A stretch of DNA of 64,000 bases, from the NCBI RefSeq assembly GCF_964340395.1, contig NC_135558.1:17185771-17249770 (forward strand), given 5' to 3'. Each line of letters begins with the position of its first letter. Position 1 is the first letter of the stretch. The stretch comes from Glandiceps talaboti (lineage: Eukaryota > Hemichordata > Enteropneusta > Spengelidae). The translations under genes were made by a program, and so were the position numbers. Below the pieces are notes generated by a model that saw nothing but the letters and a program-made list of their open reading frames with translations, was not told the origin of the DNA and searched no databases. Positions 1,299-61,477 of this stretch are shown piece after piece.

Positions 1299-1366
<68 letters not shown>

Positions 1367-3190: not shown

Positions 3191-3195
3191 TTCTA

Positions 3196-7120: not shown

Positions 7121-7122
7121 AA

Positions 7123-10100: not shown

Positions 10101-10319
10101 TGATAATTTCAGCTCTGGTACCTCTCTCTCCATCTCTGACGTTTGAAATTAATGAGACCTTGCAAGAGCATCTGATTTGATTCCACCATTTTTTACATTT
10201 CTTTGTTTCTCCAAACATTTCTTCTACACTAGCCGGAAGATTGTCCTCGTGTTTACCTTTCTTTTCTCTATAATGTGGGTTTAAAGAAATACAATGATAT
10301 GAATATGGACACACCATTC

Positions 10320-24669: not shown

Positions 24670-24700
<31 letters not shown>

Positions 24701-26130: not shown

Positions 26131-26329
26131 GTAAGGAAGATTTGTGTTGATCCAGACGATAAAATGTAACAATGTTAGTAAGATATTTATCTATATTTAT
26201 TTTACTTTAGGACCGAGGATAAGTAGTAACAAGTTTGAGAACGATATTCCGCCGGCAAACTGACCACCAACACGTGATAATGGATCCGCAACAATCGATT
26301 CTTACGTAAAATGAAAGGCGGTGTCTGTA

Positions 26330-26460
26330 TCTAATCTTGATATAAGGGTACTTTATAAGGGGAATTGATTTTGATTTGTCACACCACTCTTCTACAGAAC
26401 ACCTACCAGGGCAGTCGTGAGTTTTTTTTCTCGTCCTCCCAAATTCACTTCTAATACAAA
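26330..26460 (+). promoter_or_regulatory. Promoter/5'UTR of FABP copy B
   Basis: TATA-like CTTTATAAGGGG near 26,350-26,362, about 100 bp before the ATG, then the 'TTCTACAGAACA' block and T-run shared with FABP copy A. Further upstream (26,090-26,210) lie repeats of 'aatgttrgtaag' also present upstream of copy A. Confidence 0.6.
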
Positions 26461-33309: not shown

Positions 33310-34594
33310 GGTATTAGCATGTGCACAGTAAAACCCCTAACCTGCACACAGAATATCCATACCCCCTAACCTGCATAAAGTATATCCCTAACCCCTAGCC
33401 CGCGTACAGTAAATCCCCTAACCATTTAGCCTGTGTACAGTAAATCCCTAAGCCCCTAGCCTGTACTATGTACAGTAAATCCCCTACCCTGCACATAATA
33501 CATCCCCTAACCCCCTAACTCACTAAGACCTAAACATAGAATTGTTTGCTTCTGGTTACCCGACCCCACCTACCCTTTTCACTGCCGATGCTGAACTTCC
33601 TTTTTACATATTAGAGAAAAAAATAATAAAATCGCAAAAATTGTGTGTGAAGTCTCGCCAGAAATAGTGGATGCGGAAACTGACATCAACTTAAAAAGGA
33701 CGTCGACACTTTAAAACTATTCTTCCAATTCTGCAATTGTTTCAATCTAGGAAGCAGTAAACAACACATATATGGCACACAAATGAAAAACATGAAGTAG
33801 ACCCTCACAGAAAAAAAATGTAATAATTAAAATAAAACAAAAAATCATGCCACCCCATCTATTGTACAATTAAGCGTAATCAGAACCAAACGATTTTTTT
33901 AGGCCAAACCTGCGTCCAGTACCCACTATACTAACCTGTGTACAGTACACCCCTTAACCAACTAACCTGCATACAATACACCCCTAACCAACCAACTGAC
34001 CTAGGCCTGCGTACAGTACATTCCCTAACCAACCAACCACCCAACTAACCTGCATACAATACATTCCCTAACCAACCAACTAACATGCATACAATACATC
34101 CCTACCCTGCATACAATATATATGTCCCCTAGCCTGCATACAGTACATTCCCTAACCAAGCAACTAACCTGTATACAGTACATCCCCTGACCAACCAACC
34201 AACCAACCAACCAACCAAACAACCAAGCAACTACCCTGCATACAGTACATCCCCTAGCCTGCATACAGTACATCCCCTGACCTACCAACCAAGCAACTAA
34301 CCTGCATACAGTACATCCCCTGACTGACCAACCAACCAACCAACCAACCAACTAACCTGCCTACAGTACATTCCCTAACCTGCATACAGTACATCCCGTA
34401 ACCATCTAACATGCGTACAGTGCATCCCCTAACCAACTAAAACGTGTACTTTAAATACCCTAACCAACTAGTCCGTGTGTAGTCAATACCCTAACCAACT
34501 AGCCTGCGTACAGTAAATCCCCTAACCAACTATAAACCTGCATATAGTAAGTCCCCTAGCCAACTAACCTGCGTACAGTACATCTCCTAACTTG
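33310..34594. repeat. Minisatellite, about 31 bp units (left part)
   Basis: Imperfect tandem copies of a unit built on 'cccctaaccaactaacc' plus 'tgcatacagtacat', with shorter variants lacking 'caactaac'. It is interrupted at about 33,523-33,905 by a GGCCTAAA-type MITE and ends at 34,594 at the solo-LTR candidate. Open frames across it are artefacts. Confidence 0.95.
33523..33905. mobile_element. GGCCTAAA-type MITE inserted in minisatellite
   Basis: Left end 'gacctaaacatagaattgtt', right end 'aaccaaacgatttttttaggcc', imperfectly inverted. The interior matches 29,333, 41,826 and 45,288. Minisatellite units continue on both sides. Confidence 0.75.
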
Positions 34595-35323
34595 TGAAAC
34601 GTTGTTGACCGGCTTACTGTGCAGTTTATCGATATTCTTAATGTTCAAACGGGGAAGTACTCACTCGCACTGCTGTTCCACTCGTCATTCTGTTCCATTT
34701 AAGACTATAACGTTGAATTAGCCAACCACTAGTTTCTTCTCAAACCACCTTTTCCACGAGTACCGACTTGGATTATGTTGAGTAGAACTCACAACGAAAC
34801 ATACGTATCTGGTTCAACGAACGCCAAGCTAACCACTTGGCTGATTTTATTACTAGACCAATGTCCGTCTCCGTTCCTTCCCAGAAGGGCTAAAAACCCA
34901 ACTTAAATACATTTCAAAGTTTACACAAATCTCTACTGTCAGAGTATGACGTATTCTTAAGTCTTATGAAAGACATCATCTGAGATCTAATATCCAATCA
35001 CCTTCTCTAGATTAGTAATACAAGTTCATACAAAATACTTGTGTAATATTATAATTATACTTCTACAAAACAATGAAGTCATATAATGAAGTTCTAAAAT
35101 TAACACATCATGTCATACTAAAACCCGTTGACAATTCAATCGTACCTGGAACAAACAATTCCGAAATACCCAATGTTGAGATGTTGAAGACCTATGTTGT
35201 TACGCAACGGAATGTCACTGTGTGTACAAAGTTCAACTGTTTTTTTACTTAAAATCAGAGTTCATGATGAAAATTTACCAAAATATCCTGAATGGATATA
35301 ATTTAGGTCTGTCGCTTGTAACA
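34595..35323. mobile_element. Probable solo LTR in minisatellite
   Basis: A 729 bp unique block splits a minisatellite unit. It begins TGAAACG and ends GTAACA, so TG...CA, and is flanked by CTTG on both sides (34,591-34,594 and 35,324-35,327). An intact unit elsewhere reads 'cctctaacttgcatacag' (about 35,621), exactly the sequence expected before insertion. No coding sequence lies inside. TG...CA ends with a 4 bp duplication are typical of LTR retrotransposons. A second LTR and internal region are absent, hence solo. Confidence 0.6.
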
Positions 35324-36586
35324 CTTGCATACAGTACATCCCCTAACATGCATACAGTACATCCCATCACCTGCAAAGTGTATATCCCCTAACCAATTAG
35401 CCTGTGTATAGAAAATCCCCTAACCAACTAACCTGCATATGGTACACCCTTAACCAACCATCCTGCGTACAGTAGATCACCTATATTTAATACAGTACAT
35501 CCCCTAACCTGCATACAGTACCTTCCCTAACCAAGTAACATGTATACAGTATGTCCCCTAACCAACTAACCTGCGTACAATAAATCTCCTAACCAACTAA
35601 ACTACATATAGTACAATGTCCTCTAACTTGCATACAGTACATCCCCTAACCTGAAAAGTGTGCATCCACTTACCACATAGCCTGGTGCGTACAGTAAATC
35701 TCCTAAAAGCAACTAGCCTGCATATAGTACATCCCCTAACCAACTAACCTGCATATTGTACATCCCCTAACCAACTAACCTGTATAAGGTACATCCCCTA
35801 ACCAACTAACCTGTGTACAGTACATCCCCTAACCAACTAACCTGTATACAGTACATCCCCTAACCAACTAATCTGTATACAGCACGTCCCCTAACCAACT
35901 GACCTGTATATTGCACATCCCCTAACCAACTAACCTGTGTACAGTACACCCCTAGCCAACTAACCTGTGTACAGTACATCCCCTAACCAACTAACCTGCA
36001 TATAGCACGTCCCCTAACCAACTAACCTGCATACAGCACATCCCCTAAAGAAATAAATAACCTGCATACAGCTCATCCCCTAACCAACTTACCTGAGTAC
36101 AGTAAATCCCCTAACCAACTAGCCAGCGTACAGCCAATCCCCTAACCAACTAAATAACCTGCATACAGCTCATCCCCTAACCAACTAACCTGAGTACAGT
36201 AAATCCACTAACCAACTAGCCAGCGTACAGCCAATCCCCTAACCAACTAGCTATCCTGCATACAGTAAATCCAAAAACAACCGAACATGCATAAAGTACA
36301 ACCCCTACCCAACTAATCTGCGTAGAGTTTATCTCTAACCCTCTAACATGTGTACAGTACATCCCCTAACCCGAATACAGCACATCTCATCTAGATCTCC
36401 CCCTAACCTGTGTGCAGTAAATCACCTAACCCCTTTAACCTGAGTACAGTACATTACATAATCCCCTAACCTGCACACATTATATCTCTAACTCCCTAGC
36501 TTGTGTACAGTACACCACCTAATAAGCCCCTAGCCTGTGTCCAATAAATCCTTTAAGCCCGAGCCTGTGTACTGTAACCCCTAGCC
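35324..36586. repeat. Minisatellite, about 31 bp units (right part)
   Basis: Continues the array after the solo-LTR candidate, with its best-preserved units at about 35,720-36,250 ('cccctaaccaactaacctg' plus 'tgtacagtacat'). The array is cut at 36,587 by the TATATA/CACTAGTAG junction of the 17 kb block and resumes for about 1.5 units at 53,763-53,805 in the same orientation. Confidence 0.95.
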
Positions 36587-36592
36587 TATATA

Positions 36593-36851
36593 CACTAGTA
36601 GAAAAAATAGTACAGTTTACGACACTTTCCGTACTATAGTTCAGATTGAGTTCAATTCTGTACTTTTATGCTGATGAGGTGGACGTTTCTGTACTTTCCC
36701 ATTAGCGCCTGTCTAATCGGATTATACTCGATCTGAAAAATAGTTCAGATTGCGAGTCGGAAGTGATTTGAATACATTTGCATTTAGTTCAGAATATATT
36801 CATGAGTTCACCCCCATAACCGGGCAGTAAACAAATGAATATTCAAATCTA
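36593..36851 (+). repeat. Left 259 bp terminal inverted repeat
   Basis: Identical in reverse complement to 53,498-53,756. Near its outer end it contains a short stem TAGTAC/GTACTA. Similarity to the right arm stops sharply after 'caaatcta'. Confidence 0.95.
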
Positions 36852-39800
36852 TCTCGCCTGCATGTGATTCAAGGCGTGTACACTAATTGTTTGACCCACA
36901 GAAAACTAACAGTAACACTATTTAGTTAGTTAGTTGTCTGTGTTTGACCACATGAAGGCGGAGGGGGAGGGTGCAAAAGAAAAGGGTTACACACATGTAC
37001 AGTGTATGATATGATGAGAGCTACATTTAATGTACATGTACATACGAACTGACATGTATACGTACATGTACAACTACGCTAGCATGTAAACGTTAGCAAA
37101 AACTCTTACTACTACCTCAGACCACTAAAATACTAGAGTGGTCTGAGCTACTACTACTTGCAAAAAGTATTTACAAGCATTTCCATGTAGGTCAATGAAA
37201 TATCACCTATGTGGGTTATACTTCAATAGTCGGTCAAACAGCGTAAAGGTCTACATTCTACAATGACAGACATGATTGTTCAACTCGGTGCGATCTAAGA
37301 TGAATTCACGGTGTATATTTGGTTACGCCGCCTTTGAATTGATGATGACGACTCGTCCGACCTAGACTGTTCTGGTCCAGTTTCAAGTGAAAGTCAGAAT
37401 TATCACGGTGCCATTGATTATACTAACTGTGATGAAACTCGCCCACTCTAGTCTCTATGACTTCATTAGCCCCAAAATGCAAGAACTTAATAATGGTATT
37501 GTAAATCGAAGTTCATGCATGCTCTGACTGTCGCCTGTTTTTTGTTTTCTTACATTTTATACAATTTTGAATTGTTAGCTTTGTATTTCCTGCATTAATG
37601 TTGAAAACTGGTCTTTTTACTGTGCGTCTTCAATGCGCAGGTAAAATAGTGTGTTAATCTAGCATCGTGAGTACGCGCTCGCTTATGGTTTCGCATACCT
37701 TGGACTGCCTGTCATTCAGTATTGTTTTAGCCTATTTATTTCTAAAGAAAAATGGTCTGTAAAGGGACTGCTTTAGTTGTCACAGTGCCTTTGTGGATTT
37801 ATAAATCGATTTATGACAAGTGAGTCTACCTATTTTTTTTCCGACCCACTCAGTCAAGGAGTGCGATACACCAATCACCGTGTATTTAGCTTTGTATACA
37901 GTGTATGGATAATAGCAAGTTTCGGGACTGAAAAATCATAAATTGTTTGTTAGACTTATTTTTTATTCAATGTAATCTGGGTTGATTGGGAATTTTCAGA
38001 TATCAGGATTTAAACCTCGGATTTCAACTCAGAAAGGCTATATTTTTTGCCTCAGTCTGAATTATATTAGTAGAACTCTCACCAACGTTCCCAATGTGAA
38101 GTGATCTGAAAGTTGGTGAGAGGTCCTCACGTTGGATTGCAGCACTGCATGTTCTTGCCGAGAAGATAAAGAGGTGTAGTAATTATGGTTTAAAACTGAC
38201 TTTTACAAACGCCAGTCGTGTAGGGTCTATGATTTTTTATGTTGTGGATGAATGCGGCACTTTGATCTGAACCTCAGACCACTATAATAGGAACAGACTA
38301 GAATCGCTTTTTGTTTTAGGTGTAAATGGGGCTCTAAACCCATCTTCTCTGTCGTGCATGGTTACCCTTCAAACCTGCTTCAAGCCGAACGTTGTGCAAA
38401 ACGATACTTCGTGTCTTTACGGTTTTTTTTTGCAATTGTGTTTTAGTGGCCTGAGTCTGAACAAGTGTTCATACAGTACAGCAAAGTCCCACCAACAAAA
38501 TCCATAGCAATAGATGCAGGAAAACCTCAGTATGGGCGACGGTGAAATCATGGTGTTAATTCTAAAACTTTTGAAAGCAAGAACATATGTTTGTGCAACT
38601 TTTGTATTAAAAGCATACCATTCCAATTCAAGGACAACGATTTTGTTCAGAAATGGTGGTAGGACTATAATCCTTCCTACCTCCTTCCTTCCTACCTCCA
38701 TAGTTCAAAACCGCTGATCGTAACTGCATGGTACAGCGCATCTACATTTATTTCTGAGTTCCGGAGGGCATTATTTGATAAGTACCCCATTCGTCCCTGT
38801 ATTAGATCTTGTATAGTCATAACATTACAAAGATATGTGATTGTTGTGATCATTTCATTTGCTCATTATGTATTCAAGTGTAGTCAAATTTTCTTAGGTG
38901 TATGAGCAACTTTACTTCACCAATAAATTCTACTTTCTCACGAGTATTGTAAAATAACATGGCTATAATATGATACTACACAGCACGTTTTAGACGTATT
39001 TGCATATCAATGTCATCTTCAAATTTTCTTGAAGAATTCTTCATCCAGATACTCTAACATACCTGCACACCAAATGTCAGCCCATTCAATCGATTAGTTT
39101 TGCGGCTGTCATTCATTTTTACTTTGAATTCTTTTATTTACAAAACAAATGACAGTTTTTGACCCCAAAAATGACCAAAAACAGAAAATTGAAAATATCT
39201 TGCTGTCATAAACAAATATGAATAGACTTCTCGATAAAATTCCATTTACTCATTGGGAACATCGAACGTACAATGTCAAAAAGTCGCACTGGCGCAAAGT
39301 ATCATGGGAAAACTTTCTTTGGCACACCTCACTTAGGAAATATAGCCGCAACAAAAAAGTTAATACTGGGATCATGTCTTTTTAAATTTAGCCTTTACCT
39401 TATAGAATAGAAGTATCAAAAGTGTATGCACTAACAAGTATCTGTGGTTTGTGCAAACATGCCAAATCGCTGATGATTGTTAAACAACAAAACTTTGCAT
39501 ACCATTGTCATTAATAATTCTACGTTTTACTTCTGAATCAGTTCTAAACACTTACGATTGAAATGATCGTCAACGATACGCTGATTTGTAGTTGAGGGTA
39601 ATTAAAAATATTTTACAATGACGATTTCGACCATTAGCCGATGGAGGTGACCCCAACCAAACCTGTCACAAGATGTAAACTTGCACACTTTTTGTGTGTC
39701 AATATGTCTGTTCTGGTCAGTCTGTTTTGGGAATTTATGGTACACTCACTGTCGCAGTTTTCAGCCAGGGTCACGTTATTCGACGATTACTATTTGGATA

Positions 39801-41125
39801 AACACTGCAAAAAAGTAACACCCGTCATTGTTGCTTAGACATTTTCCTAGGGTCTTTTTCAACATGATTTATAGTAAGAAGTAACTTTGTTGATGGTGTA
39901 GTCACTGAATTTATAACCCTACATCGATGACTTAGTAATTGAACACGCAAATGAATTATCATGAACACTGATCTACAACCGATCCGACCCTGGGATTCGA
40001 TCACAATTCATGGCGTCGCTTGCCAGTCTATGTCTATGTCTTGGTCACGCAAACGTGAACACTCTGATATCTGAAACACTTCTTTGCTCCAGATACGCAC
40101 CTTTTTTTCATGGAAAATGTCATATAGTTTGAAGTAAGCTGGGAGAAAATATTAATGAGATATTTGTAGATTTAAATAAGAGTGAAATGATAGTCAAGTG
40201 ATTTTGAACCATCTCCGTGTATTTTGCTTTAGCGAAAACACTGACAACTACTAGTATGTGATCGCCCGGTCGTCAAATTGCAAAGAACAATGAAGAACAG
40301 CTGAACACCTTCCTGTGGTCATCTGTTCCTTTCCGTACCGACTCTCAATTGTTTTGCTGCGTTTACTTGTATATCTTTAATAACAATAGTTTTTTAACTA
40401 ACACCAATGTTCTTCCACTTTCTTTGCTTTCAAAATCAGTCACTTACTGTTGTAGCCAGTCAAAGACAGCCATCCTCAACTGGAAACACACCATGACAAC
40501 AAAGATATACCAGAAAGTCATGACGTTTTGAATCATATCATTCGGCCCCCAACCCTGTTTTTGACAATTAAAAAATGCTCTACTACCCATCACAGCCAGT
40601 ATCAATCAGACTTTTTCCATATATTATATTCCACCCTAACTTAACCCATATGACCGCCCCATTTATAACTCGTATGTCCGGACATGAACATGATTGGCTT
40701 TTCGCTGACCAAGGGGTATGAGACCATATGTGGAAGTGGGGGATAAGCTTATCAAATATGACCGTAGTTCCATGTAAATTAAAACTTATAGTTATGCTTA
40801 TAGTCGTTACGTTTTCAGTTTATTGTGGTACCCGCTTGATGCTTTCTCTGAAGATGCCGACGGGATCAGTCTAAAATTCAGTTCTGGTGTATAAACTACA
40901 ATGTATCACACATATCATGACTCTCACTATCCAATCCATCGGCTATACACTGGAGAACACAAGGACTATACTGACTGTTTTCTATCCAGCACGAAATAAA
41001 TTGAGAATACGTGGAACTTATATGTACATGAACAGTAGCTCCGACAACTCTGACAAGTCTCTATATACCCCACCAGGCCTCTTTGCTGGAGTTCGCGGAG
41101 CGTGTGTTGTCAGTGCTAATCTCGT
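36852..41125. other. Interior of 17 kb block: no gene recognised
   Basis: Only short open frames. Contains one micro-hairpin (37,107-37,157, listed separately) and scattered 'cctcagaccact' motifs (37,115 and 38,270; also at 48,600). No transposase motif was seen. Confidence 0.4.
37107..37157. mobile_element. Micro-hairpin insertion with 9 bp direct repeats
   Basis: CTCAGACCACT and AGTGGTCTGAG arms with a 10 bp loop, flanked by TACTACTAC on both sides (37,107-37,115 and 37,149-37,157). The simple-sequence nature of the direct repeat lowers confidence that it is a target duplication. Confidence 0.5.
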
Positions 41126-41189
41126 CTAGTTCCTATCACCGTGTTCCTAAACAGTATCGTTACCATTTACACCTCCACTCACTAAACTT

Positions 41190-41240
41190 GGTTTAGTCAT
41201 AGAAAATAGAGAGGACCCTCTCTATTGTCTATGGTTTAGT
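41190..41240. mobile_element. Micro-hairpin insertion, 8 bp duplication GGTTTAGT
   Basis: An imperfect hairpin CATAGAAAATAGAGAG...CTCTCTATTGTCTATG of 36 bp lies between two copies of GGTTTAGT (41,190-41,197 and 41,233-41,240). The surrounding dispersed repeat exists without the hairpin at about 47,888 ('gtggtttagttagaaacc'), showing the uninterrupted arrangement. Confidence 0.7.
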
Positions 41241-41825
41241 TAGATACCAATTGGCATCTGGACTAGAGCTAATCACGAGTCCATCACAACGTGCATGCAT
41301 CATTTTCTGATGTCCGCATTTGATTTGGACATTGAAGTAAATGATTTTACATTTCTGAGTCTCATTCGGTATTTTTCCACTGTTCTATATGTGGTAGCTA
41401 CTACTTTTGGCACAATAAAAAAAAAGATGTTAGGAAGACGAAAAAAAATATAATCGAGATGCACGATAAACATTTTTGGAAAAAAAGTCACATAAATGAC
41501 TGCAGTATCCATATTTTTAATTGGCATGATTGAAGACTTTAAAAAATGAATGATGATAAAAGTGAGATTTTGCCTCAGTGATGGTTTTTCTATACAAGCG
41601 ATAACATCACGATACCGGGTACTTCACAAACATTATCTCACTGACTTCAAAACCATAGTGACTAAATCGTTTCGTACAATTAGACGGCATGATGTTTTTT
41701 ACGTCTCGCACAAGCATATACAATGGTACACTTTACCAAATTGTAATAGACCATGTAAATATTACATTGACCGATGCAGATCTTGCTCGCGCAGGTTGGG
41801 TAGATTTATATGCTACGTTATGCCT

Positions 41826-42183
41826 TAGGCCTAAAAAATAACTGTTTGGTTTCTGTTACCCGACCCACCTAGTTTTTCACTGCCGACCCTTAACTTTTTT
41901 TTACGTGTTCTTGAAAAACTAACAAAATCGCAACAATTGTGAAGTCTCACGAGACATAGTGGATGCAGAAACTGACATCAACTTAAAAAGACAATATAAA
42001 ACTGTTCCTCCAATCTGTAATGGTTGTACATCTAATGGAAAGAAGCCAATAACACAGAGATCATTTGGAAAAAATGGAAAACCAGAATTAGACACTCGCA
42101 CATGAATAAAAATAAATCTACCTACCCCACCTATTTATTTATTTTGCCTAATCGGAACAACACAATTTTTTTAATAGGCCTAT
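41826..42183. mobile_element. GGCCTAAA-type MITE, fullest copy
   Basis: Begins 'taggcctaaaaaataactg' and ends 'aatttttttaataggccta', with imperfect inverted ends of about 30-40 bp. The interior contains 'gccgaccct', 'gaagtctcacgagacatag' and 'gcagaaactgacatcaac', shared with four other copies in the window. Confidence 0.75.
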
Positions 42184-42287
42184 TTCCTAACTCAAGCTTA
42201 AATTATTGGACCCTTGTGAACCAAAAATGTGCGAAAATACAACGCCAAAATAGTAACGCTTTGCACGGTTTTCACACTGAGCAATAC

Positions 42288-42332
42288 GATTAGATCATAG
42301 ACAGTGAAGTTCTCCAGTGTCTCTGGTTAGAC
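42288..42332. mobile_element. Degenerate micro-hairpin candidate
   Basis: CATAGACAGTG...CAGTGTCTCTGG inverted arms between GATTAGAT and GGTTAGAC (6 of 8 identical). Same end motif as the other micro-hairpins but decayed. Confidence 0.35.
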
Positions 42333-44995
42333 CGACAACAATGAAACCGTTAGCGGGATCTCAGAGTCATACTCATTCACATACAATTTTTTATGGCTGT
42401 TCACGTTGGTTAGCAACATCTCTGTCTTTGAGTTTGAATGAAATCGCTGCCATTCCCTACAGGAAACTGTTCTATGGAATTACATGCCAGGAGCGCTTTC
42501 AATATCATAGAATGTTTTGTTGATCTTTTTTTTTTCTTTTTTTTTTTCTTCTTTTTTTTTTTGGGGGGGGGGGGTCGACAACTTTTACCAAGACAACCAT
42601 TATATTAATCATTATAGTAACTACCTAGCATGGCTAATAGCCATACTGAGGTAGAACTGTAGATTGCTAAAATGTTATGGGTTGCTGGTTGTACACAACC
42701 TCAGCATATGCCACTTGACTTTCAGGCATTAATAGGTGGCAGAAATAGTCCGCACCAGGGCCGCTCTGTAGTCCGCATAAAAGGGTGACTAAGCCCAGAC
42801 AATATTGTCCAGACCAGATTTGGAGGTGTGAACGCATTTAAAGCTGACTCGGTTCTAAATCTTGGTGCATATTCATGAGGTCGACACCTAGAAAATGAAC
42901 CATGTGTACATTTCTTTTGTCTTTTGTTAGTTAATTTATGCGGGTAAACTGTGTCTTCACTAACATTTTCCACTAAAAGTTTCAAAATTGTCTTGTTTTT
43001 TGAAGGACTACTATAATAATATTTCACCGCCCTTGCTTTATTGTCATATCAGGAAAGTCAAGAACTTGACAAAAGCTATTCACAACAAAGTAATCAAAGT
43101 TGTAAAACCAAAATGGTGCCGTGGAGAGTTGTGTCTGGTCATGTTCTGATCATGGAAGTATAACCCACGGTCTGATCTAGTAGCAGTATATCAACGACGA
43201 ATCTACATTACAAACAAACAAACAAACAACACACACACACACACGGTGATATTAAAAAGCACGCAACACAAAGGTTGGTTCACATCCCTCGCATCAGTAC
43301 CGGTACCCATTCTACTGAGTTATAAATATAAATCACATTCTCAGCTACAACATTGAACTTGTATGATACAAAAATCTTCAGAATGTGCGGGCCATATTTT
43401 CACTACCGGCATTGGCAGTCACCATCACTGCCTTTAAAAAAAATTAATACAGATAAATGGAAGCAAAAACAATCCTTTTGACGGTAGTTTAGTAGTCAGT
43501 TATGAATTATGTAACGTTAAATAACGCTATTCAAATATTTCCCTCTATGCCTCCCATATACCGATAGTAAATCTTCAAACATCCATACAGACATGCGGAC
43601 TTTGCTCCCTACTAGATACATCCATGTTTTACGTTACTTTCGTATTGCAAATTTAGCTGATGATGTCATGTCAAAGCCACGTGGTCTAAAAACCTGAATC
43701 TCCGTACATACATTTCGATATGAAATTATTTATCCGTGATGTTTAGAATTTTGGTCGGTCAATATAGTTTCAATGACCAAGTGTGACCCCCACTGATGTC
43801 TAAAGTACTAATATCAGTACCTGACCGGCCATGGCCATGGCCTTGTTTTTGTTTTTGATTTTCTTCAATATTCAAATCTACGTAATGTCTGGTTTGTTAG
43901 GCCATAAATTCCAAGCATATTTACCATGATATCACAAATATAGACCAGTTACAGAAAGTAATAAGTGTCAGCAAAATACTGTAATATCGACACTGTTTCA
44001 CGGATTTTAGGGACGCTGGTGCTTGGATTATTTTACGGTTGACATTACCTAGCCAGTAATATAAGGAGTAGTACATGGGTATTTTATCCCTGGACTCTCT
44101 GTCTGTTTATATCGAAATGGAATAAGCTGAAACAGTTCTTCTTTGAGCAGGAAATATGTTGTGATTATGGATATTATATATATACATGTATATAATTGCC
44201 AACACATCGGCAACGAGAGTAATGACATTGACTATACGTAATATGTAAAGATGTAGTGTAAAATTGGAATACGGTCGTCAGGAACTAGATTAGGGTAGGG
44301 GGAGGCTCAGGAGAAAAATTGTTGTCACGGGAAAAAAACGAATTGGGACGTGCGTGAAAATTCGGATTGTCTGAAAGGGGCCCGGAGTCACGTACAAATA
44401 TTTTGCTCATGAGTTGAACCAAATTTAACTCCAGGAGCAGACGTTTAACAAGCGTATTTTTAAAAGGGTGACTGGCAGAGAATGTGTGTCTCTTGAAGGG
44501 TAGACAATATACTCGCGATAGACTATGGGTTTCAGGCCACTGTGTCAGACGTGGTCTTGGAGGAGTCAGTACAATTCCTCCAAGAGTGGTAAGAGGCCAA
44601 GCCTGAAATAGACGGGTTTGCAAGTAGAAGTTTACATGCCTTGTCTGTGGTTTACATTGTGCACGCAAAACATCCCACAAAACCGGCCATAACTAAAGCG
44701 GCATATCAGTAAATATGAAAAACGTGATCTTGGTAATTTGGATACCAGTTCTGAAAATATTCTCCGGGAAAATAGGTTAAAATGAACATCAAGATAGCTG
44801 CCTATTTCCCATTGTTTATAAATCGTCAAGAGGTTAAGCTATCCACTCAGATGAACCACTCTTTGTCACTTTATAATCTGGCATTATACATGGGATAATT
44901 TCCAAAATGTACATGTTTTATCGTTTCATTTTGGACTTTATAGAAGTTGATGACTAAAATTACCTTACCCTCGATGAAAGTTATGAATGCGACTA

Positions 44996-45034
44996 GGTTT
45001 TACCATAGACAGGGTGGAGGGTCTATGGTTTTAC
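44996..45034. mobile_element. Micro-hairpin insertion, 8 bp duplication GGTTTTAC
   Basis: CATAGAC...GTCTATG hairpin (insert only about 23 bp) between exact GGTTTTAC copies at 44,996-45,003 and 45,027-45,034. Confidence 0.65.
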
Positions 45035-45287
45035 CTACTAGAATTAGTTGCGACAAGATTGTAAATGCACATGGGCGAGTTTTGCCAGATTGCTTTATTT
45101 CAAGTGATTTGAAAATTGTGAATGGCGGACTTGGCCGTGGTCCATCGAATTGTCGAGTACTACCGTGGTGGCACTAGTCGTTCCTCACTGGAACGGCAAG
45201 TGCCACCTTATGGCGATATTTATTGTCTTTGAACCTTTCTCAACAAATAAATCACACATAACTCCCCAAACGCTTCCATTCTAGAAA

Positions 45288-45425
45288 TCCGGTGCCGACC
45301 CTAAACCTTTTTAATAAAGAAGAAAAATCAGTAAAATCGAGAAAATTGTGAGTGAAGTCTTGCCAGAAATGGTCATCAACTTAAAAAAGACAATAAAAAA
45401 ACGCGGTTCTTCCAATCTGGAATGC
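45288..45425. mobile_element. GGCCTAAA-type MITE internal fragment
   Basis: 'ggtgccgaccctaaacctt', 'aaaattgtgagtgaagtctt' and 'catcaacttaaaaaagacaa' match the interiors of the other copies. Both ends are missing. Confidence 0.6.
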
Positions 45426-45439
45426 AGAGCAGATGTCTT

Positions 45440-45905
45440 TGAAATAGAATTATTTAGTTTGGTTTAAAATTTAGTTGAAGTGGGCACAAAACTTGATTTG
45501 GTTCTGACTGTTCTGAATTTAGGGACACGAAATCGTCTCCCTGATGGCAGGAGTTCAAAGTGTTGGGACATAATGTGGCCTTTGTCATTTACCATTTTCC
45601 CAGCTTTGTTTTGTACACGAGATGTAAACACTTCATTCAAATTAGTCTACTTTTCACTCAATACTTTACTAAACACATTTACAATTTTGTTCAAGACACT
45701 CTTGTAGCTAGTCCCTAGACTACCAAACCAGCACAAAAAAGAAAATGTTAAACCGACTCAAAACTCCGATAGAATGTCTGTAATACCTTGGCATTTACAA
45801 AATTTTAGGCCCCTCAATTGTTGTAGACAGTAAACTCTAGATTGACATTTCTTGTTAATGAAATCTGTGTTGGCCTTAACATTTGATTTATTATCCAAGA
45901 CTGTT

Positions 45906-45967
<62 letters not shown>

Positions 45968-46510
45968 TTTAGTCACCTGTTCAACTTTAACATTGTCAAT
46001 AAAAAGGTCGGGCACTACTTTAGGGTTCTTCCTAAAGTCGACCTTTCGTCCAAGTAGTTTTCTTTACACCAAGTAACAAACCTATCAACTTCATCGAAAT
46101 AAGTACGGTCAGAATTTGACAGGTCAACTAATGCAGAGTTATCAGAATATTTGATAAGTGGATTTGTATCGGTACCTGATGAGCAGTCATTTGTGTAAAG
46201 TGTAAATAGTTTGTGTGAGAGTATCGTGCTCTGTGAGGCACCCCTAAATGTTGAATGGAAGGCTGAACTTAATTTTTGGTAGCGAACAAACTGGGAAAGG
46301 TTGACAAGAAAATCCATTATCCAGAGGATGAGTTTGGGGTTAACGTTTAAATAACTAAGTTTATGAGCCATCATGTTTGGTTGACTTCTGTTAACGACTG
46401 ATGAAAAATCAATAACCAATAGTCTTACAAATGAACTTGGTTTTTCAAGATGTGTATACGCATCGTGAAGTAATGTGAGAGTTGCATTATCAGTACCTCT
46501 ATTACTTTAA
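45440..46510 (-). mobile_element. Non-LTR retrotransposon RT domain and 3' end
   Basis: On the minus strand: 'VIDFSSVVN' (first catalytic block), 'KLSYLNVNPKLILWIMDFLV', 'LSHKLFTLYTNDC', then 'LIKYSDNSALVDLSNSD', where the catalytic YxDD reads YSDN, so this copy is inactive. 'WCKENYLDE' follows, then after a frame change 'PDLFIDNVKVEQVTKY', an inserted (AT)n tract, 'TDFINKKCQSRVYCLQQLRG', and a C-terminal stretch in line with 'SEQSEPNQVLCPL' near 45,500. CR1/Rex-like clades use similar wording. The assignment is approximate. Confidence 0.8.
45907..45968. repeat. (AT)n microsatellite inside LINE RT
   Basis: About 60 bp of TA repeats with one G, interrupting the LINE codons between 'VEQVTKY' and 'GTVLDNKSN'. 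A second (AT)n lies at about 47,108-47,131. Confidence 0.95.
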
Positions 46511-46666
46511 TATGTAAATTGGTATGGGTCAAGGTGTGAATGTTTTTGTGGGTTTTGACAAAGTAAAATACGCTCGAAGCATTGCACTGCGCTCATTGTA
46601 TGTCACGGCGTACAAGTATAAACGACGTTCATACTTCCATGACCATAGTTTCTGCGACCTGTCATT

Positions 46667-46713
46667 TGTTTGACCATAGACACTCCACCTTTGTGGAGGG
46701 TCCATGGTTTGAT
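46667..46713. mobile_element. Micro-hairpin insertion, degenerate 8 bp repeat
   Basis: CCATAGACACTCCAC...GTGGAGGGTCCATGG hairpin (46,674-46,707) between TGTTTGAC and GGTTTGAT (6 of 8 identical). Confidence 0.5.
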
Positions 46714-48125
46714 GGGATGCGTTAATTCTGGCAAACTTGTTTGGCAAATCGATCTGACGCAATATAGCTTGTGACCGTGGCATGCATAGCTTGGGTCAAA
46801 ATCTATAACACCATTAAAGTATAAATAATGTTTAAACTTCCACGATAACACATACCTTTGAGAAATTATACTGACAGTATAATTACTCCAAGCACAGACT
46901 ATTCTCGTGTCAAACTCCGACACGAACTTGTTTTTCCTTGAAGAGTATATCTCGTGAGACCTATGGAAATTATCAAAATCTATATTGTAGTTGAAAAGAG
47001 CAAGAATGAAAAGAGGGGAAATTTAAGGGACATCATTTCTATATACACGTGTATTGTGCAAAGAACCCGATATCTTTGACCGCGTTGCCGTCAACCGAGC
47101 AATGGTAATATATATATATATATATATATATAAGAGGTAAGTCATAAACTGAAGGAAAAGTGCTCAATACTGAGAAGTAGAGCTGTATTTACACAAAGTA
47201 CACAAGTTATGGTACGGAGGCCGTTACGATCTTCAGACGACTAAATAACGGAAATTCAAGTGATAGAATTCGATGCGCGTTGTTGAGTGACATGGTGGAA
47301 TGATAGAATGTATTTGTTTTCGTGGACGATTTAGTGGACGATCTAGTGGAATTAATCTCTAAAAAAACCCAACATGAATCATGGTCTGAGTACTTCACAA
47401 ATGTATTCAATGCTCAAGTCCAAAGTGATGAAAGTTTCTCGATTTCCATGATCTTATCAGATCCACCTTGATAGACATAAATTCAGGCATTAATGGTGAG
47501 ATTAATATCCGACTGTAGTCTTTTGGACAAGGTAATTACTTTGATAGTCTAGTTCCTATACTGTATCATTACCATTTATACCTCCACTCAAAGTATAGTC
47601 AGAGTCGTTACTCTAGAAGTCTTGAAATGCATGAGATGCAATTTAAAATTCATTTACAGCCACCCACACAGTCATTAACATCATGTCTTTGTTAATAAAT
47701 CACAAAACTCTAACCAATAACACAGTCCCTCATAAAGTTAGTGTTTATTGGGACAGTAATGTTCAAATGTGGTATATTTGTCAGCCCATGATGCTACTTA
47801 TATACTGTTTACATCACCAAAACATTTAGGTTTCACTGATTGGGTGAACAACTTTTTGTGCTATTTGAGGGGCTTTTGGCTAGACGTGGTTTAGTTAGAA
47901 ACCATATTGGCATCCATACTATTACTTTGAAGGAGATCATTGAAGAACAATAAAAATAAAACTCAAGGTGTGGATATGGGATCAGTGTGGCATTCTACAT
48001 AGACATTCTCCAACAATTCTTGTAGACATGTTATGTAACCATTTTTTCTTCACGAAAGGCATGTTCCCACAGGAATCAATGGGGTAGGGGTTTCTAACAT
48101 TGTCTTTTGAAAGTAAATTACATGT
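46711..48125. other. Interior of 17 kb block: no gene recognised
   Basis: Short open frames only. Contains (AT)n at about 47,108 and a dispersed-repeat copy in two parts: 47,549-47,600, related to 41,126-41,182 and 3,590; and 47,885-47,925, related to 41,233-41,270 and 3,632. Confidence 0.4.
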
Positions 48126-48487
48126 ATGTCAAAACTAAAATTATTGTATTTACTAAGAGATGAAATTCTTAAGAAAATTGAAAAGTGGTTATTGGTGGTC
48201 ATAAACTCGACGTTGTTCGCTTTTTATGAATATCTAGGCGTGATTATGTCAAGCAGTGGTCTATGGTATTTAGCGCTTGCAGCTCAAGCGAGTAAAGCAA
48301 TGATTGCGGTCATGAGTCAACTTGCAAAACTTGGGGACCTCCTAGTCAAAACTAAATTTAAAAGTTTTTGACTGTAAACTATTACCGATATTAAATTATA
48401 CAGTGGAGATTTTGGGTTTTAATAGGTCTACTGAAACTGAACGTGTTCAAAGTAAATTTCAGTGTTATATTTTGAGTCGTATATAAA
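48126..48487 (+). mobile_element. LINE RT C-terminal fragment
   Basis: 'FYEYLGVIMSSSGLWYLAL', 'ASKAMIAVMSQLAKLGDLL', then after a one-base shift near 48,370 'DCKLLPILNYTVEILGFN' and 'VQSKFQCYILSRI'. This is the thumb/C-terminal region typical of jockey-like LINEs. A related element is at 55,440-57,400. Confidence 0.7.
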
Positions 48488-48769
48488 CATATATGTAGTC
48501 TTTGAGTATGGGAGCTACAAAAATGCTTGACAAGTGTTCATTACGGGAAGTAGGCTGAAATGTTTTGAGATTGCTGAACGAGAGCTGCAAAACTTTAACC
48601 TCAGACCACTTCTCCTCAGCCCTGGTTCAAGTTCTTAGGTCATAGTGGTGTAAACTACATCTCAGACCACAATGTAGTGACCTGAGACTACATGTACATG
48701 TAGGCCCTACCTACTGGTATATTATGTAACTGCACTTGACGCCAGTGTGATTTCTAACTAAACTGTGTT

Positions 48770-49900
48770 ATTGAAAGAACCGATGTGACGTCATCTGTTT
48801 TCTTTGTACCTGACACAATCCTAGCTGCTGTATTTTGGGCATGTTCAAGAGGGACAATGTTTTTAGCTGGCAGCCCATACAGAAGGGCCATTCAGTAGTC
48901 AGGTATCGATGATATAAGTGCATGACCAAGGTTCTGACAAACTCCGTTTGTAAGATACTGGCGTATGCGACCATAGACAGTGGAGGGGCCCCCTCCACTG
49001 TCAATGATGCGACCTATTGTTCGGGGGTGAAAAAGAACTGATCTACATGTCAACGAGATGTGCTTCTTGAGGTTATAACGGTCATCAATTGTTACACAAA
49101 TGGTACATGCTGAATCCACTAACTGCACAGAAGACGATCCCATGTTGATGTGGTTCATGAGACGAGGAAGCCTGTTGAACTGAGACGTGATAAGGAGGAC
49201 CTCGGTTTTGCCATCATTAAACTAGCTTATTTTGGGTCATTTAATATCATGTGCAACAGTTTCCATAGACAGTGGAGGGGCCCCCTCCACTGTCAATGAT
49301 GCGACCTATTGTTCGGGGGTGAAAAAGAACTGATCTACATGTCAACGAGATGTGCTTCTTGAGGTTATAACGGTCATCAATTGTTACACAAATGGTACAT
49401 GCTGAATCCACTAACTGCACAGAAGACGATCCCATGTTGATGTGGTTCATGAGACGAGGAAGCCTGTTGAACTGAGACGTGATAAGGAGGACCTCGGTTT
49501 TGCCATCATTAAACTAGCTTATTTTGGGTCGTTTAATATCATGTGCAACAGTTTCCATCTTAGTTACTGTAGTTGACGTATGTGATTGGGGAAATATATT
49601 GGTAAATCTGGTTGTCGTCTGCATGTTGTTGCATATTGAGATTTTGATGTCGGATTAGCTTTCCAAGTGGTGATGTGTATAGACAGCATACGCGTGTAAG
49701 AGTGGACCAAGCACAGGGTTTTGTGACACTCCACACTGCAAATGTTTGGTTTCTGATATGCCTTGTACAGAAATGGACTGTTGTATATCTTTGAGGTATA
49801 AAGACTCTAGTCGAATGCCTGTAATACCGAGCTCGGAATAAACTTGAAATTATGCTGGAGTCAGAATTTACGGGGGGGGCATGAACAAAATTGAGGTTCA
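48770..49900 (-). mobile_element. LINE (CR1/L2-like) RT fragment with internal tandem duplication
   Basis: On the minus strand: 'SPLGKLIRHQNLNMQQHADDNQIYQY' region, where YADD reads HADD (49,620-49,700). Then 'MNHINMGSSSVQLVDSACT', 'RYNLKKHISLTCRSVLFH', 'RIRQYLTNGVCQNLGHAL', and a C-terminal 'YGLPAKNIVPLEH'-like stretch (48,810-48,890). A 291 bp part occurs twice in tandem (48,971-49,261 and 49,262-49,557). A 42 bp in-frame insertion (48,971-49,012) containing a hairpin sits inside the RT frame. Confidence 0.8.
48965..49014. mobile_element. Micro-hairpin insertion, 8 bp duplication ATGCGACC
   Basis: A 34 bp insert centred on a 27-base palindrome (GACAGTGGAGGGG/CCCCTCCACTGTC) between exact ATGCGACC copies (48,965-48,972 and 49,007-49,014). 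It interrupts a LINE RT frame between 'RTIGRI' and 'RQYLTN', so the pre-insertion state is inferable. Most of it is repeated at 49,262-49,300 as part of the tandem duplication. Confidence 0.75.
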
Positions 49901-50028
49901 AAGGGAGGGGGGCATGACAATTGTGATGGTCTGAAAGGGCCCCCGAATATTCTGCTCATGATTTGAACCAAAATTAAACCTCAGGAGCAGTTGTTTACCA
50001 AGTAAATTTACATTTGTATAAGTGTATG

Positions 50029-50133
<105 letters not shown>

Positions 50134-51072
50134 GCCGTATGTCTCCTTCTCTCTTGCTCTATCTCTCTGTGTGGAGACTTTGTTGAACATTCAAACCACA
50201 GGAGCAATCGTTTACCTTGTACTTTGCAAAATTGTTCACTTCATTTACCTACCACACATTTAATTATTAGGCAGCCAATGGCCAAACGAATGTGTGTGTC
50301 TGCCAAAATATCTATGTATTAGTTAAAGCGTAGGTAATACAGTTGTAAAATAATTTAATGAGAGTACAATTTGGGTATTGAAGACAATTTTCAAGTACTT
50401 TATGGCTTCCAATAATGTGTATGGTTTGAAATATTATGCCGCTAAATGGCCTCCTACATGTCCTTATTTTTCAAACAATTGCCTACTGTGGGAGGGGGAC
50501 ACACCCTCCCCACTAGTTATCGAAGGGGGGTGCCGTTTCTGTCAAGACATAGGATTCAAAAAGAAAACTCTGCTGGTTAAGTTTTTCCAAGTACAGGTTA
50601 CAGCCCAATGAGCCCACATCCATTTGTAAAGAAATCTCTATGTCTGATATGTATGGACACTGAAGTTGATTTCCACTGTTAGCTTACAGTGTGTCATATA
50701 GTGTACCATACTGTACTTCTCTGACGTGTATGGGGAGGGGGTAATGTATAATTGCATATTAAAATATGTGCAGCCGGGGGGGGGGGGGTATGGACGTCGC
50801 CATCTTTCAAGCGCTAAATTACCTGTTAATCGAGATTTGTTTCAAAACATTAGCATGGTTGATAATATATGTGAAAGGGGTAAACTAAGAATGGTTTCTG
50901 GGATCGCCTAAGTCAACACGACATATATTGTGGATGGTCTGAGATATTCGATTACGATTCACATCGTCCGATTTCCAATCGTCCCAATATCCATATTAAC
51001 ATTCTTTATCGTTTCAAAATCACAAAAATGCATATGTCGTGGTGGGGTGAGTACCAACTCTAGTTTGGTCTC

Positions 51073-52318
<1,246 letters not shown>

Positions 52319-52490
52319 TGCTCCTTATAGTCTCGCTGCCAGACTCGAGACTATCGTCCCTAATCTGTTTACCGAGCGGCGCAGCCGCGAGAATAGAGGG
52401 GGACTGGTCCCGCTCTTCTCGCGGCTGCGCCGCTCGGTAAACAGATTAGGGACGATAGTCTCGAGTCTGGCAGCGAGACTATGCTCCTTA
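52319..52490. mobile_element. Palindromic MITE (66 bp perfect arms) with 9 bp target duplication
   Basis: Arms 52,328-52,393 and 52,416-52,481 are perfect reverse complements separated by 22 bp. The arms are GC-rich in a moderately AT-rich neighbourhood. TGCTCCTTA flanks both sides exactly (52,319-52,327 and 52,482-52,490). A 9 bp duplication is characteristic of Mutator-like elements. No coding capacity. Confidence 0.85.
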
Positions 52491-53497
52491 CAGCAGTTTG
52501 TTTTTCCCGCATATGCATACATTACCCATAATCCTTTTAAGTATTCTGCAGATATCTGCGCAATGTGCACTCATGACTCATGAAAATCTGGAATGCACTG
52601 ATCGAAGCCAATTGTACAGTTATACTATAAAAACAGGAGTTATGAGTATAATTGAAATAAAACAAGAGAATAAGAGATGAGGGCCCTCAGAATCGTCACG
52701 TAGAGTGATATAACAGTTACATGGATGCCGGGCATGTACCCATAGGTACGGGCCCGGGGGGGGGGGGGTTCTGCATGCCGAACGTCATTAAGTATTTCCT
52801 TTACTTTGGTGCTCATGATCGTAATTTGGATGATGCCCAAGATATTTGAGGCGTGAATACCTGTTGTTCTTCTAAAGGCTTGTTTATTACTGTGAAGATC
52901 ACACCCTAACACTTAATTGTTCTATAAACGACACATGGACAAGAATACTATTCCCATAGAGGTTAGTCTAGTTAATTCCTGATGGACCGTATTTCGTTCA
53001 GCGTTACGTTGTACATAACACGGTCAGTCAGAAACTATAGACGACATGGACGACATGGATGCCATATAATATTCCCAATAGTCACTCAATTTTACTTAGC
53101 TAGAAATAATGTCCACAGACTCAAATCTGTCAGCACGTCTCTACTGTGAGTTTGTTGACGCTATTGGCCGGTCAGGTTTGTTAAGAAGCTCCATACACTA
53201 GCAATATTTGTGGCCCAATTTTAAACTATTATTGGAAACGATTGTCATGTCATCTAAATCTGTATTACTATGCATCAAACGCGTAGAAATGTGAAACACG
53301 TTTAGTGGTGGCGGTATGTAGTGCATAATGAAAAGGCGTACTACGAACATTTATTTCAAAATGAGCCCTGTGATATTACAATCTACGTACGTCCTAACCA
53401 TGTAGTTCATATCATAAGCCTGCTTATATACATACATATGTATCGAATGCACTAGCTACACGTATAGCGTTTATGTACGTATTGATTGCAAGCACGG
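52491..53497. other. Interior of 17 kb block: no gene recognised
   Basis: Contains a G-run at 52,756-52,768. No coding motif seen. Confidence 0.4.
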
Positions 53498-53756
53498 TAG
53501 ATTTGAATATTCATTTGTTTACTGCCCGGTTATGGGGGTGAACTCATGAATATATTCTGAACTAAATGCAAATGTATTCAAATCACTTCCGACTCGCAAT
53601 CTGAACTATTTTTCAGATCGAGTATAATCCGATTAGACAGGCGCTAATGGGAAAGTACAGAAACGTCCACCTCATCAGCATAAAAGTACAGAATTGAACT
53701 CAATCTGAACTATAGTACGGAAAGTGTCGTAAACTGTACTATTTTTTCTACTAGTG
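53498..53756 (-). repeat. Right 259 bp terminal inverted repeat
   Basis: Reverse complement of 36,593-36,851 with no mismatch or gap. Its outer end abuts TATATA and then about 1.5 minisatellite units, after which the HNMT-like pseudogene's last exon begins at 53,857. Confidence 0.95.
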
Positions 53757-53762
53757 TATATA

Positions 53763-53805
53763 ATAAATCTCCTAACCCCTGACCTGTGTAAAGCAAATCC
53801 CCATG
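53763..53805. repeat. Minisatellite remnant beyond the 17 kb block
   Basis: 'aaatctcctaacccctgacc' followed by 'tgtgtaaagcaaatcccc' is about 1.5 units of the 33-36 kb minisatellite, in the same strand orientation. Confidence 0.7.
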
Positions 53806-54685
53806 AACGCCCTCACCTATGACCAATCTTCAGTAGTTTCCAAATAGTCATGATTATTATAATGTTGTAATAATGAAATCGCAGTCGTCACTACGAAAAA
53901 ACATATCATCACCTTCTCTCGTACAGCATTCCATCATGTATTCCAGCAAGAGGTTTACATTTTCTTGTGAGACATTTTTTCGAAAATCGTCTTTCTTAAA
54001 AATGATGTCTAGAATCTTATTCCCTTCTTCTGAATCCTCTTGAAAACACTCGGTAATTTTGACTTGAGCTTTTCTAGCGGGTTTTCTCTCCACTTGAATA
54101 TCAGGGATCTCCTCCAAAGCCGAAAGGACAATTTCTTCAGCATGGGCCCACACGTAATCGTCACGGTCAATCGTGCACACCTCACAATATTTCAGGAAAC
54201 ATTTTGTCCAAGCACCTGAAGAAGAAGAAGAAAAAAAAAACTCTGATAACAACATTGTATGTACAAAATCCAAGTGACAAAGTGGAAAAGCTGGTACACA
54301 AAGTGTCCGCCAAAAGACTATCTGTTATATATGCATTTACGATCAAAGTGGGTCATTTTGAAAGTTTAGGTCATTAGTTTTATTTATACTGCTGGAGACA
54401 ACATGATTATTATTGATGGAAGTTTCAAAATCTGAATGAACATTTAAAAGGAGAATTTACCCTAAATCAAAATCGTGCTGTGTTCAGCAGTAAAACTGCT
54501 CTCATCTAGCGAGTAAAACAGCAACCTAAACGTACGTGCAGATGATCAGAATTGATCATTACATTTATATGTTATATACAGTCTTCTGGTGTACAGTCCG
54601 TTTTATCTGTATCACACAATAGTGGATTCCTGATGAGCATTTTTACAAGTTACCGATGTCACGTACAATGTACACGGCATGATAT

Positions 54686-58835: not shown

Positions 58836-60276
58836 ATCTTGATTATTATTAAAATCATTATTATTATACTACTATATCATTTAATTATTACAAAGACTAT
58901 TATGCAATAAACAAGTGCATTTGGTTTTCAGATATACATTTGCTGCATAACAGCCGCCACGGTAATAGACGTCTGCTAGTGTAAATAAGGTAAAGGCGTT
59001 TTTATCACAACATTTACTCGGGCACATGTTCTTTATATAGTCATAGCAAATCCCCCAAAAGACTTCCGTGTAACAGGATTATTGCCAAATATTGAAAATA
59101 GTGCCCCATTCTATGAAAATCACTAGCCCATAGCACGTGACACGATCTAAGCCAAACACTGAAGCCTTTATGAAAAAGGTATGATATAAAACGTTATAAT
59201 GCATGGCGAAACTGTGTTATTGAACTTAGTATCTTATACACTTTAATAGTATTGACTATTTGTTCGGATTGTGTGTCTCATATGAATATAAACTGATATG
59301 ATGACAAGTAAAACAACGTGAAAGCCTCTCTGAGTTTGTTCATCAGAGAAATGTGCCCAATATCTGAAATCGTTAATTTGGGTGGCTAGTACTGTAACCT
59401 AGAATCCAGTTATGTGGGAATTTTGCTCTCTCATTTTTTAAACTTCCACACCTAGCATTTGGCTATAACATGCATATTCAAACCTGAAATTAGATTATGA
59501 TTTTATGAAATTATGATTTCGTACAGTAATGCTGAATATGGCAAGCATATGCAGATCTTACAGATCTCTCAGTTGGTTCTAATCACATGGTGAAGCTATC
59601 GACGTCATCTCACACCATGAACAATTAAAAACTTCAAGTTTTCTGGCCACTGTTTCATTATTAATAGATCATTAGCAAAATGCCATGGGAGGTATGAGAA
59701 AACCGACAGTAAAATCCCCGCACACCTAGATTCTAGACTTATATTAATTTGCATATTTACCTTCACCAAATCGTAAAAGGATCAATCCATCCTTTTGCAT
59801 CCAATCACACAAAGTTCGAATAATTGCACCTGGATCTTTAAAGTAATATAAACTGTGAAGCGCGTAGATTACATCATACTTTATACATTGGTCTGCTTTC
59901 TCTCTCTCCCTGTCAGCGATGAACTCTTCCATAGTCTGACAATGTGGAATGAATGTGACTCCTTTCCATTCCTTGCTGTTTAAATCAATTAGAGCTTTAA
60001 AATCATCCAGATATCCGTCAGCAGGTTCCACTAGATCATAAACTATCTTTGAGTATCGACGAACAAGGGCATTGATGATAGGAACATCATTGGTCCCTGT
60101 GCAAAGAAGAAGAAAAAATTAAACTTTAGAGTACTAAGAAGTTTCCTAGATATACATTTCCTTTTAATATCCTGCATACAGCTTAGGTAATCCGGCAAGT
60201 GGCGGTAACACGTGACTAGGAGAATTTCACAACTTAAAATTAAGCGTACACAGACTTTGACTCTTTAATACTGAAA

Positions 60277-61123: not shown

Positions 61124-61477
61124 TTAAAGTGGCCATATGGATGAGAATTTGGTATTTATTTTAAATATTTATTTGATAAAACAGCTTCACCATGTTTTTC
61201 TACTTGAAAAAATAATGCAAAAGAACATATACCAAGTCTATGTTCATAACTCAATACATTGCAAAAAGATGCACAAAGTGTAAGAAGTTTATTATTGTAC
61301 GTAAAATAACAATCATTTTACACATTGTTTAATGTTTTGGCGTTTATTGAGATGTGAACATGGACTTGGCATATGTTATTTCACATTATTTTTTCAAGTA
61401 GAAAAACATAGTGAGGCTGTTTTATCAAATAAAAATCCAAAATAAATACCAAATTCTCATCCATGTGGCCACTTTAA
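61124..61477. mobile_element. MITE of 354 bp with TTAA ends
   Basis: Starts TTAAAGTGGCCATATGGAT and ends ATCCATGTGGCCACTTTAA. Imperfect inverted arms of about 135-145 bp extend inward ('gagaatttggtatttatttt', 'aagaacatataccaagtcta' and their complements). TTAA on both sides is compatible with a piggyBac-like target duplication. It sits in the intron between HNMT-like exons E2 and E3. Confidence 0.8.

Follow-up and report, generated by a model that had tools for sequence, protein, structure and literature searches.

A minisatellite in the genome of the hemichordate Glandiceps talaboti is split by 17 kb of DNA with perfectly matching inverted ends, which raises the question of what this DNA is and how it came to be there. 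The locus lies in a stretch of 64,000 nucleotides on contig NC_135558.1 (positions 17,185,771 to 17,249,770 of the forward strand; G000:C11:17185771-17249770 in our numbering), which we refer to as the window and which we compared with the whole 590-Mb, 47-contig assembly. The element has precise ends and paired arms, belongs to a dispersed and recent set of copies with 3–4 bp target duplications, and contains no recognised gene. We consider it likely that the window element belongs to a family of cut-and-paste DNA transposons of CACTA/EnSpm-like type that is young, giant and, as it appears, non-autonomous. The family is probably mobilised in trans by an enzyme made elsewhere.

Ends, arms and insertion site of the window copy

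The element occupies positions 36593–53756 of the window (17,164 bp; G000:C11:17222363-17239526), and its exact arms form one of the 49 convergent pairs listed genome-wide and described below. The left terminal inverted repeat (36593–36851, plus strand) begins CACTAGTAG, and the right one (53498–53756, minus strand) is its exact reverse complement over 259 bp, with 0 mismatches, just as the first-pass annotation had claimed. The termini are CACTAG..CTAGTG, in full CACTAGTAG..CTACTAGTG. Palindromic TATATA beyond both arms lengthens the inverted repeat to 265 bp (36587–53762), which is the block as originally delimited; TATATA does stand outside both arms, and the element proper is the shorter 36593–53756. 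Inward of the arms, similarity ends at the inner arm boundary. With up to 3 mismatches allowed, the 18 bp at the outer end of the arm match 2 places in the window, compared with 0.08 expected by chance. Once low-complexity sequence is filtered out, no other exact inverted pair in the window exceeds 67 bp, and the pair of that length is part of a 156-bp hairpin inside the element.

Each arm contains subterminal repeats. A repeat listing inside the arm places TAGTTCAGATTG at 36637–36648 (plus strand) and again at 36741–36752, with a partial third copy, and TAGTTCAGA is found again at 36785; TTCTGTACTTT stands at 36656–36666 (plus strand) and at 36687–36697. In En/Spm, repeated motifs of this kind are bound by the CACTA transposases or by partner proteins, and the arm motifs are putative transposase-binding repeats.

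The host minisatellite has units of 23–31 bp in the left flank. Its left part spans 33332–36592 (plus strand), where the element breaks the array mid-unit, and the remainder continues in unchanged orientation from 53757 to 53806, an extent judged by eye; the earlier description of an array cut mid-unit and resumed in the same direction thus holds at both flanks. Within the minisatellite units, the spacing from CCTG to CCCCTAA is 16 in 44 of the 78 instances tallied (distances between 8 and 24 were taken in), 14 in two, 20 in two and 18 in none. When the flanks are rejoined, this spacing becomes 20, 18, 16 or 14 for a target duplication of 0, 2, 4 or 6 bases, respectively. Aligned to the unit, the 4-bp version of the rejoined site is ungapped with 5 substitutions, and the 6-bp version has 3 substitutions and 2 deletions. 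Because the 4-bp version restores the spacing of 16 and fits the unit without a gap, the target duplication of the window copy is best read as TATA, with its two copies placed at 36589–36592 and 53757–53760, and not as the 6-bp TATATA proposed at first. A TA-target element of the Tc1/mariner type was rejected on the grounds of the minisatellite spacing and of the 3–4 bp duplications of the other copies.

A dispersed and nearly uniform family

The outer 42 bp of the arm has 163 exact matches in the genome, 81 forward and 82 reverse, and the reversed control has none. Among the 100 arm ends listed of these 163, with up to 40 kb allowed between partners, there are 49 convergent pairs and 2 unpaired ends; 40 of the listed pairs are spaced 16.7–18.0 kb, one 3.3 kb and eight 19.3–36.9 kb. 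The suggestion that the arms recur as pairs 5–30 kb apart, and not as singles, is well supported by this distribution. If the remaining 63 ends behave alike, the family would number about 80 elements and make up 1.4 Mb, or 0.24% of the genome. In a search with the 259-bp arm, 40 of 304 candidates were scored, and all of them are identical over 259 bp (window positions 36594–36852). Inward of the arm, 29 of the 30 loci read continue for at least 1.75 kb at 98.9–99.9% identity, the other (L035) being an internal deletion. Outside CACTAG, the flank is readable at 29 of the 30 loci, and by eye it varies from locus to locus.

Of the 40 left ends, 34 were followed to the expected far end, and in 28 of them the first stretch fetched contained the arm. 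Four of the other six (L028, L029, L031 and L034) have the far arm at 19.8–36.9 kb, L035 has it at 3.3 kb, and L072 has no far arm among the matches listed; at C1:19237274 (L079) the far end alone was fetched. Some copies are nested. On C12 an outer 35.3-kb pair encloses a 17.8-kb inner pair, and the fetched stretches of L034/L063 read as a copy, L034, that holds a plus-strand copy inside. L035 is an internal-deletion derivative of 3,275 bp that keeps both ends and has a TCA duplication. A second such derivative, L085 (G000:C19:17268777), joins element base ~128 to 11741 and has an extra A in the terminal A-run. At G000:C4:20597974-20634832, an arm pair 36.9 kb apart marks a copy into which unlike DNA intrudes after element base ~10,540; here L082 follows the element to about base 10,540 and then enters unmatched DNA. 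This pair was examined as a candidate for a larger version, and the 5 kb read of it (L058) contain no match to the element and only repeat-rich frames. The prevailing form is ~17.7 kb, as there is one short pair (3.3 kb) among the 49 listed and L085 was met outside that list. The viral contigs searched yielded 0 matches, and the prokaryote contigs yielded 9 matches to the 18-mer, by our estimate roughly chance level.

Target duplications were compared in the 28 copies with a far arm. Their flanks match at 3 bp in 27 copies and at 4 bp in one (L032/L061, TAAA); L078 is counted as 3 bp but sits in a TA run, where longer lengths match too. With L035 (TCA) included, 28 of the 29 non-window copies with both flanks read have 3 bp and 1 of 29 has 4 bp, and the window copy, with its 4-bp duplication, is an unusual but not unique member of the family. 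Without a background control, the commonest letters of the target are C (13 of 27), T (19), A or T (20), A (21) and G (15). Of the 27 three-bp duplications, 11 are TWA and 16 are not, and the bases that flank the duplication are mostly C (13/27) and G (15/27). The duplication of about 3 bp and the termini CACTAG..CTAGTG agree with those of CACTA/EnSpm elements, which end in 5'-CACTA..TAGTG-3'. The presence of paired arms at differing sites, with 3–4 bp duplications where read, bears out the proposal that the block is a single transposition unit.

Elements of the piggyBac type duplicate TTAA at their target. One piggyBac family does have CACTAGA ends (PMC4298943; this and the other papers below are cited from excerpts), but we rejected this type, as the present copies show duplications of 3 bp or, where they are longer, of TAAA or TATA, and not TTAA.

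The copies are very similar to one another. Over the left 1,755 bp, 30 copies (with the window copy and without the internally deleted L035) have 0–3 substitutions each; their mean distance from the majority is 0.065%, and few variants are shared. The left arms in this comparison had been preselected for 100% identity and the right arms, compared next, for a match to their outer 18 bp, so that neither set of arms is an unbiased test. Over the right 1.9 kb, 24 of the 30 copies have 0–3 changes and six have 12–15, with a block of 12 changes in common; two of the 30 right arms differ (L040 and L054). The block coincides with the 156-bp hairpin at 52327–52482. Judged by the shared changes, the loop of this hairpin is inverted in six of the 30 copies (the window copy, L045, L052, L055, L068 and L075), and we inspected the letters in all of the six except L068. 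Four of the six have another variant in common and two do not. The pattern points to hairpin-mediated flipping of the loop, and since the 12 changes are a loop inversion, they are probably one event and not 12.

A second full copy at C9:9393346-9410623 (17,278 bp) and the copy in the window are colinear except for indels, with 98.0–99.7% identity in the main aligned pieces. The near identity of the copies suggests that the family is very young, with very recent or continuing activity, and the mean of 0.065% at the left end upholds the earlier inference of recent movement from the arms. Identity of the arms follows if the founder already had identical arms and the family is too young for differences to have built up. 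There is no need to invoke gene conversion alone for the perfect arms, because the left 1.75 kb, most of which is outside the arm, is equally young.

Interior of the element and the source of its mobility

Six-frame Pfam scans of the window copy (both halves, both strands, stops as X) found no transposase, polymerase or integrase, nor any polymerase B, integrase or capsid domain. The only matches are weak, Atrophin-1 (E 7.6e-6, below its cut-off) and Trypan_PARP (E 0.12), and both fall by position on a CT microsatellite. The longest stop-to-stop frame has 163 amino acids in both full copies. In the window it lies at 46015–46506 (minus strand) and is a decayed reverse-transcriptase fragment of a retrotransposon of the long interspersed nuclear element (LINE) type, an old passenger with 15 homologues, 11 of them with PF00078; the frame's own sequence has no Pfam match. 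The C9 copy holds a reverse-transcriptase frame of equal length and start and no longer frame, so the absence of a visible transposase, noted at first pass, stands for the scanned window copy and accords with the frames of the other. We also noted that P0003, a 118-amino-acid protein on a 4,255-base ENA contig, has 98% identity over 72% of the passenger fragment; it perhaps stems from this family in a related species or a different assembly.

The interior further contains a 292-bp tandem duplication (48971–49558) in passenger DNA, microsatellites, and repeats common to the element and the left flank. In a copy of 19,271 bp (L012/L041), the sequence at the far end suggests additional repeats of the 292-bp unit. 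Rfam gave 0 matches at gathering score. We infer that the interior is debris, that is, old non-coding host-like DNA. Because the reverse-transcriptase fragment is kept in both full copies, the debris is older than the burst and travelled with the element.

In the explanation that we favour, a tnp2 CACTA-type transposase encoded elsewhere in the genome would bind the terminal CACTA and the repeated arm motifs and would excise the whole ~17.7 kb. Reinsertion would occur by a staggered cut of 3 bp, occasionally 4 bp, often at a C-TWA-G target, and the old non-coding host-like DNA of the interior would be taken along. The copy number could grow by repair of the vacated site from the sister copy, or by moves from replicated to unreplicated DNA. 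The genome does contain tnp2 (PF02992), with 10 matches, of which 7 are without stops and three of these lie in open frames of 774–998 amino acids, the longest of them at C7:6060244 and C4:14127411; none of the 14 control genomes has a match. Such frames are a possible source of the transposase in principle.

Several points weigh against this explanation. No transposase, the PF02992 matches included, was linked to the CACTAG arm ends. Ends that keep the first 20 bp and have a base other than C at position 21 occur at 0 places genome-wide, and ends that keep 15 bp and have a base other than T at position 16 occur at 2 places, both of which belong to the family and have an additional A. The assembly thus shows no helper whose ends are nearly identical to these. 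Given that no ends diverge at base 21 and that the base-16 pair belongs to the family, a helper of the EnSpm type, if in the assembly, would share just a short or altered terminal motif; it is also possible that the helper is unassembled or lost. Furthermore, the window copy lacks the usual 3-bp duplication (ATA versus TAT), which may have been altered by a later 1-bp change. Its 4-bp duplication is our best reading and rests on the unit spacing; alignment scores of the whole site (mean best 14.1, 14.5, 15.5 and 15.7 for 0, 2, 4 and 6 bp) do not separate 4 from 6. The full sequence was read for two copies, and the Pfam scan covers the window copy alone. Finally, the superfamily is not certain, since Chapaev-type elements also have CAC..GTG ends and 3–4 bp duplications.

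The origin of the element is a matter of its own. Quite possibly, short of probably, two ends captured ~16.6 kb of host DNA and were then amplified, and one end copied across to the other gave the perfect arms. Such a Pack-type origin is compatible with the favoured explanation and bears on the beginning of the family only. It would suit an interior of old debris with a decayed retrotransposon, found in the other full copy as well, enclosed by perfect arms, and animal Pack-TIRs (TIR, terminal inverted repeat) are documented, most of them attributed to gap filling (PMC8277862). However, an autonomous element that was formerly larger and received other elements step by step, as described for Ectocarpus (PMC12477816), would look alike.

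It is unlikely that the same element belongs to the Chapaev lineage of the CMC group, instead of EnSpm, and is moved by a Chapaev transposase. The hallmarks of Chapaev, CAC..GTG ends and generally 3–4 bp duplications (PMC4079192), are both present, and the 11 TWA duplications are as in Chapaev3. Yet Chapaev3 inserts between A and T (PMC4079192), whereas the neighbouring bases here are mostly C and G, and the other 16 duplications are not TWA. The transposases that we found in the genome are of the tnp2 type; Chapaev transposases were not searched for.

We regard it as distinctly improbable that the element is autonomous now, or was until recently, by means of a spliced or unrecognised transposase within the 17 kb. 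The element is amply large for this, and Pfam possibly covers animal CMC transposases poorly. The Pfam matches, however, are limited to the two on the CT microsatellite, and the longest frame in both full copies is the retrotransposon fragment.

A Polinton/Maverick or other virus-like giant element is hardly credible: its large size, long inverted arms and the six palindromic flank bases, which could hint at a 6-bp duplication, are countered by duplications of 3 bp (28/29) or 4 bp (1/29) in the other copies, by the commonest minisatellite spacing, which 4-bp removal restores, and by a window copy in which no protein-primed DNA polymerase B, integrase or capsid gene was found. An inverted segmental duplication or assembly artefact has the perfect arms in its favour and nothing further, and we give it virtually no weight in view of the 49 listed pairs with the same ends, differing sites and target duplications where read, and of the minisatellite orientation, unchanged across the element.

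Neighbouring features and comparison with known elements

Elsewhere in the window, a gene-like region is present twice, at ~413–3954 and, inverted and diverged, at ~23888–27922; short blocks of the two are about 68–91% identical (best, 87% over 394 bp). A fatty-acid-binding-protein-like exon lies at 780–1000 on the minus strand (Lipocalin_7, E 2.3e-4, below the curated cut-off) and a methyltransferase exon at 59744–60118 on the minus strand (Methyltransf_23, E 2.1e-7). Together with the LINE remnants, these two exons by themselves point to a host that is probably an animal. Three adjacent plus-strand frames at 12747–14426 give the impression of a broken DDE-type transposase; they have no Pfam match above cut-off, and the middle frame has two short relatives (P0001 and P0002). 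An imperfect palindrome at 61124–61477 (354 bp, 84% self-complementary) is perhaps a foldback element or a miniature inverted-repeat transposable element.

Non-autonomous DNA elements are usually small. Transposition efficiency falls as the distance between the ends grows (PMC6431247). It is possible, though less likely than not, that the present family is an animal burst of ~80 copies of a geneless ~17.7-kb transposon, spread with its cargo intact and at little penalty for size, and with arms formed when one end was copied onto the other. If this is true, a CMC-type enzyme can move ~18 kb of passenger DNA efficiently in animals. As the near identity of the copies suggests recent or continuing activity, there may still be a helper enzyme that can be tested. 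The system is a potential tool for large-cargo gene transfer and a natural case for the question of what sets transposon size.

The family resembles CACTA/EnSpm (CMC) elements in its CACTA..TAGTG ends, its 3-bp duplications and the repeated motifs near its ends. Classical CACTA elements have short terminal inverted repeats of 10–30 bp; the present family differs in its perfect 259-bp arms, its length of ~17.7 kb and the lack of a recognised transposase. EnSpm, Chapaev, Transib and their kin mostly have CA..TG ends and 2–5 bp duplications (PMC12730594). The CAC..GTG ends and 3–4 bp duplications are shared with Chapaev, and the flanking-base preference differs from that of Chapaev3 (PMC4079192). 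Like animal Pack-TIRs, the family has terminal inverted repeats around non-transposon DNA, and these too are sometimes multicopy; unlike it, 323 of the 370 in the survey are hAT or TcMariner (PMC8277862).

A literature search of limited breadth found no giant non-autonomous CMC family in an animal. The En/Spm elements of the red alga Chondrus crispus (16–20 kb) are alike in size and superfamily, and unlike the present family they have 4–5 open reading frames each (PMC6431247). In the brown alga Ectocarpus, giant EnSpm elements of up to 15.2 kb contain nested foreign insertions that are generally fixed among copies, and several of these giant families lack a transposase and are taken to be non-autonomous, like the family described here (PMC12477816). 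The Ectocarpus giants carry other genes, whereas the present family has no recognised gene and has perfect arms of 259 bp (PMC12477816). Hence the Glandiceps family, without a recognised gene, stands apart from its known kin as larger, long-armed and uniform.

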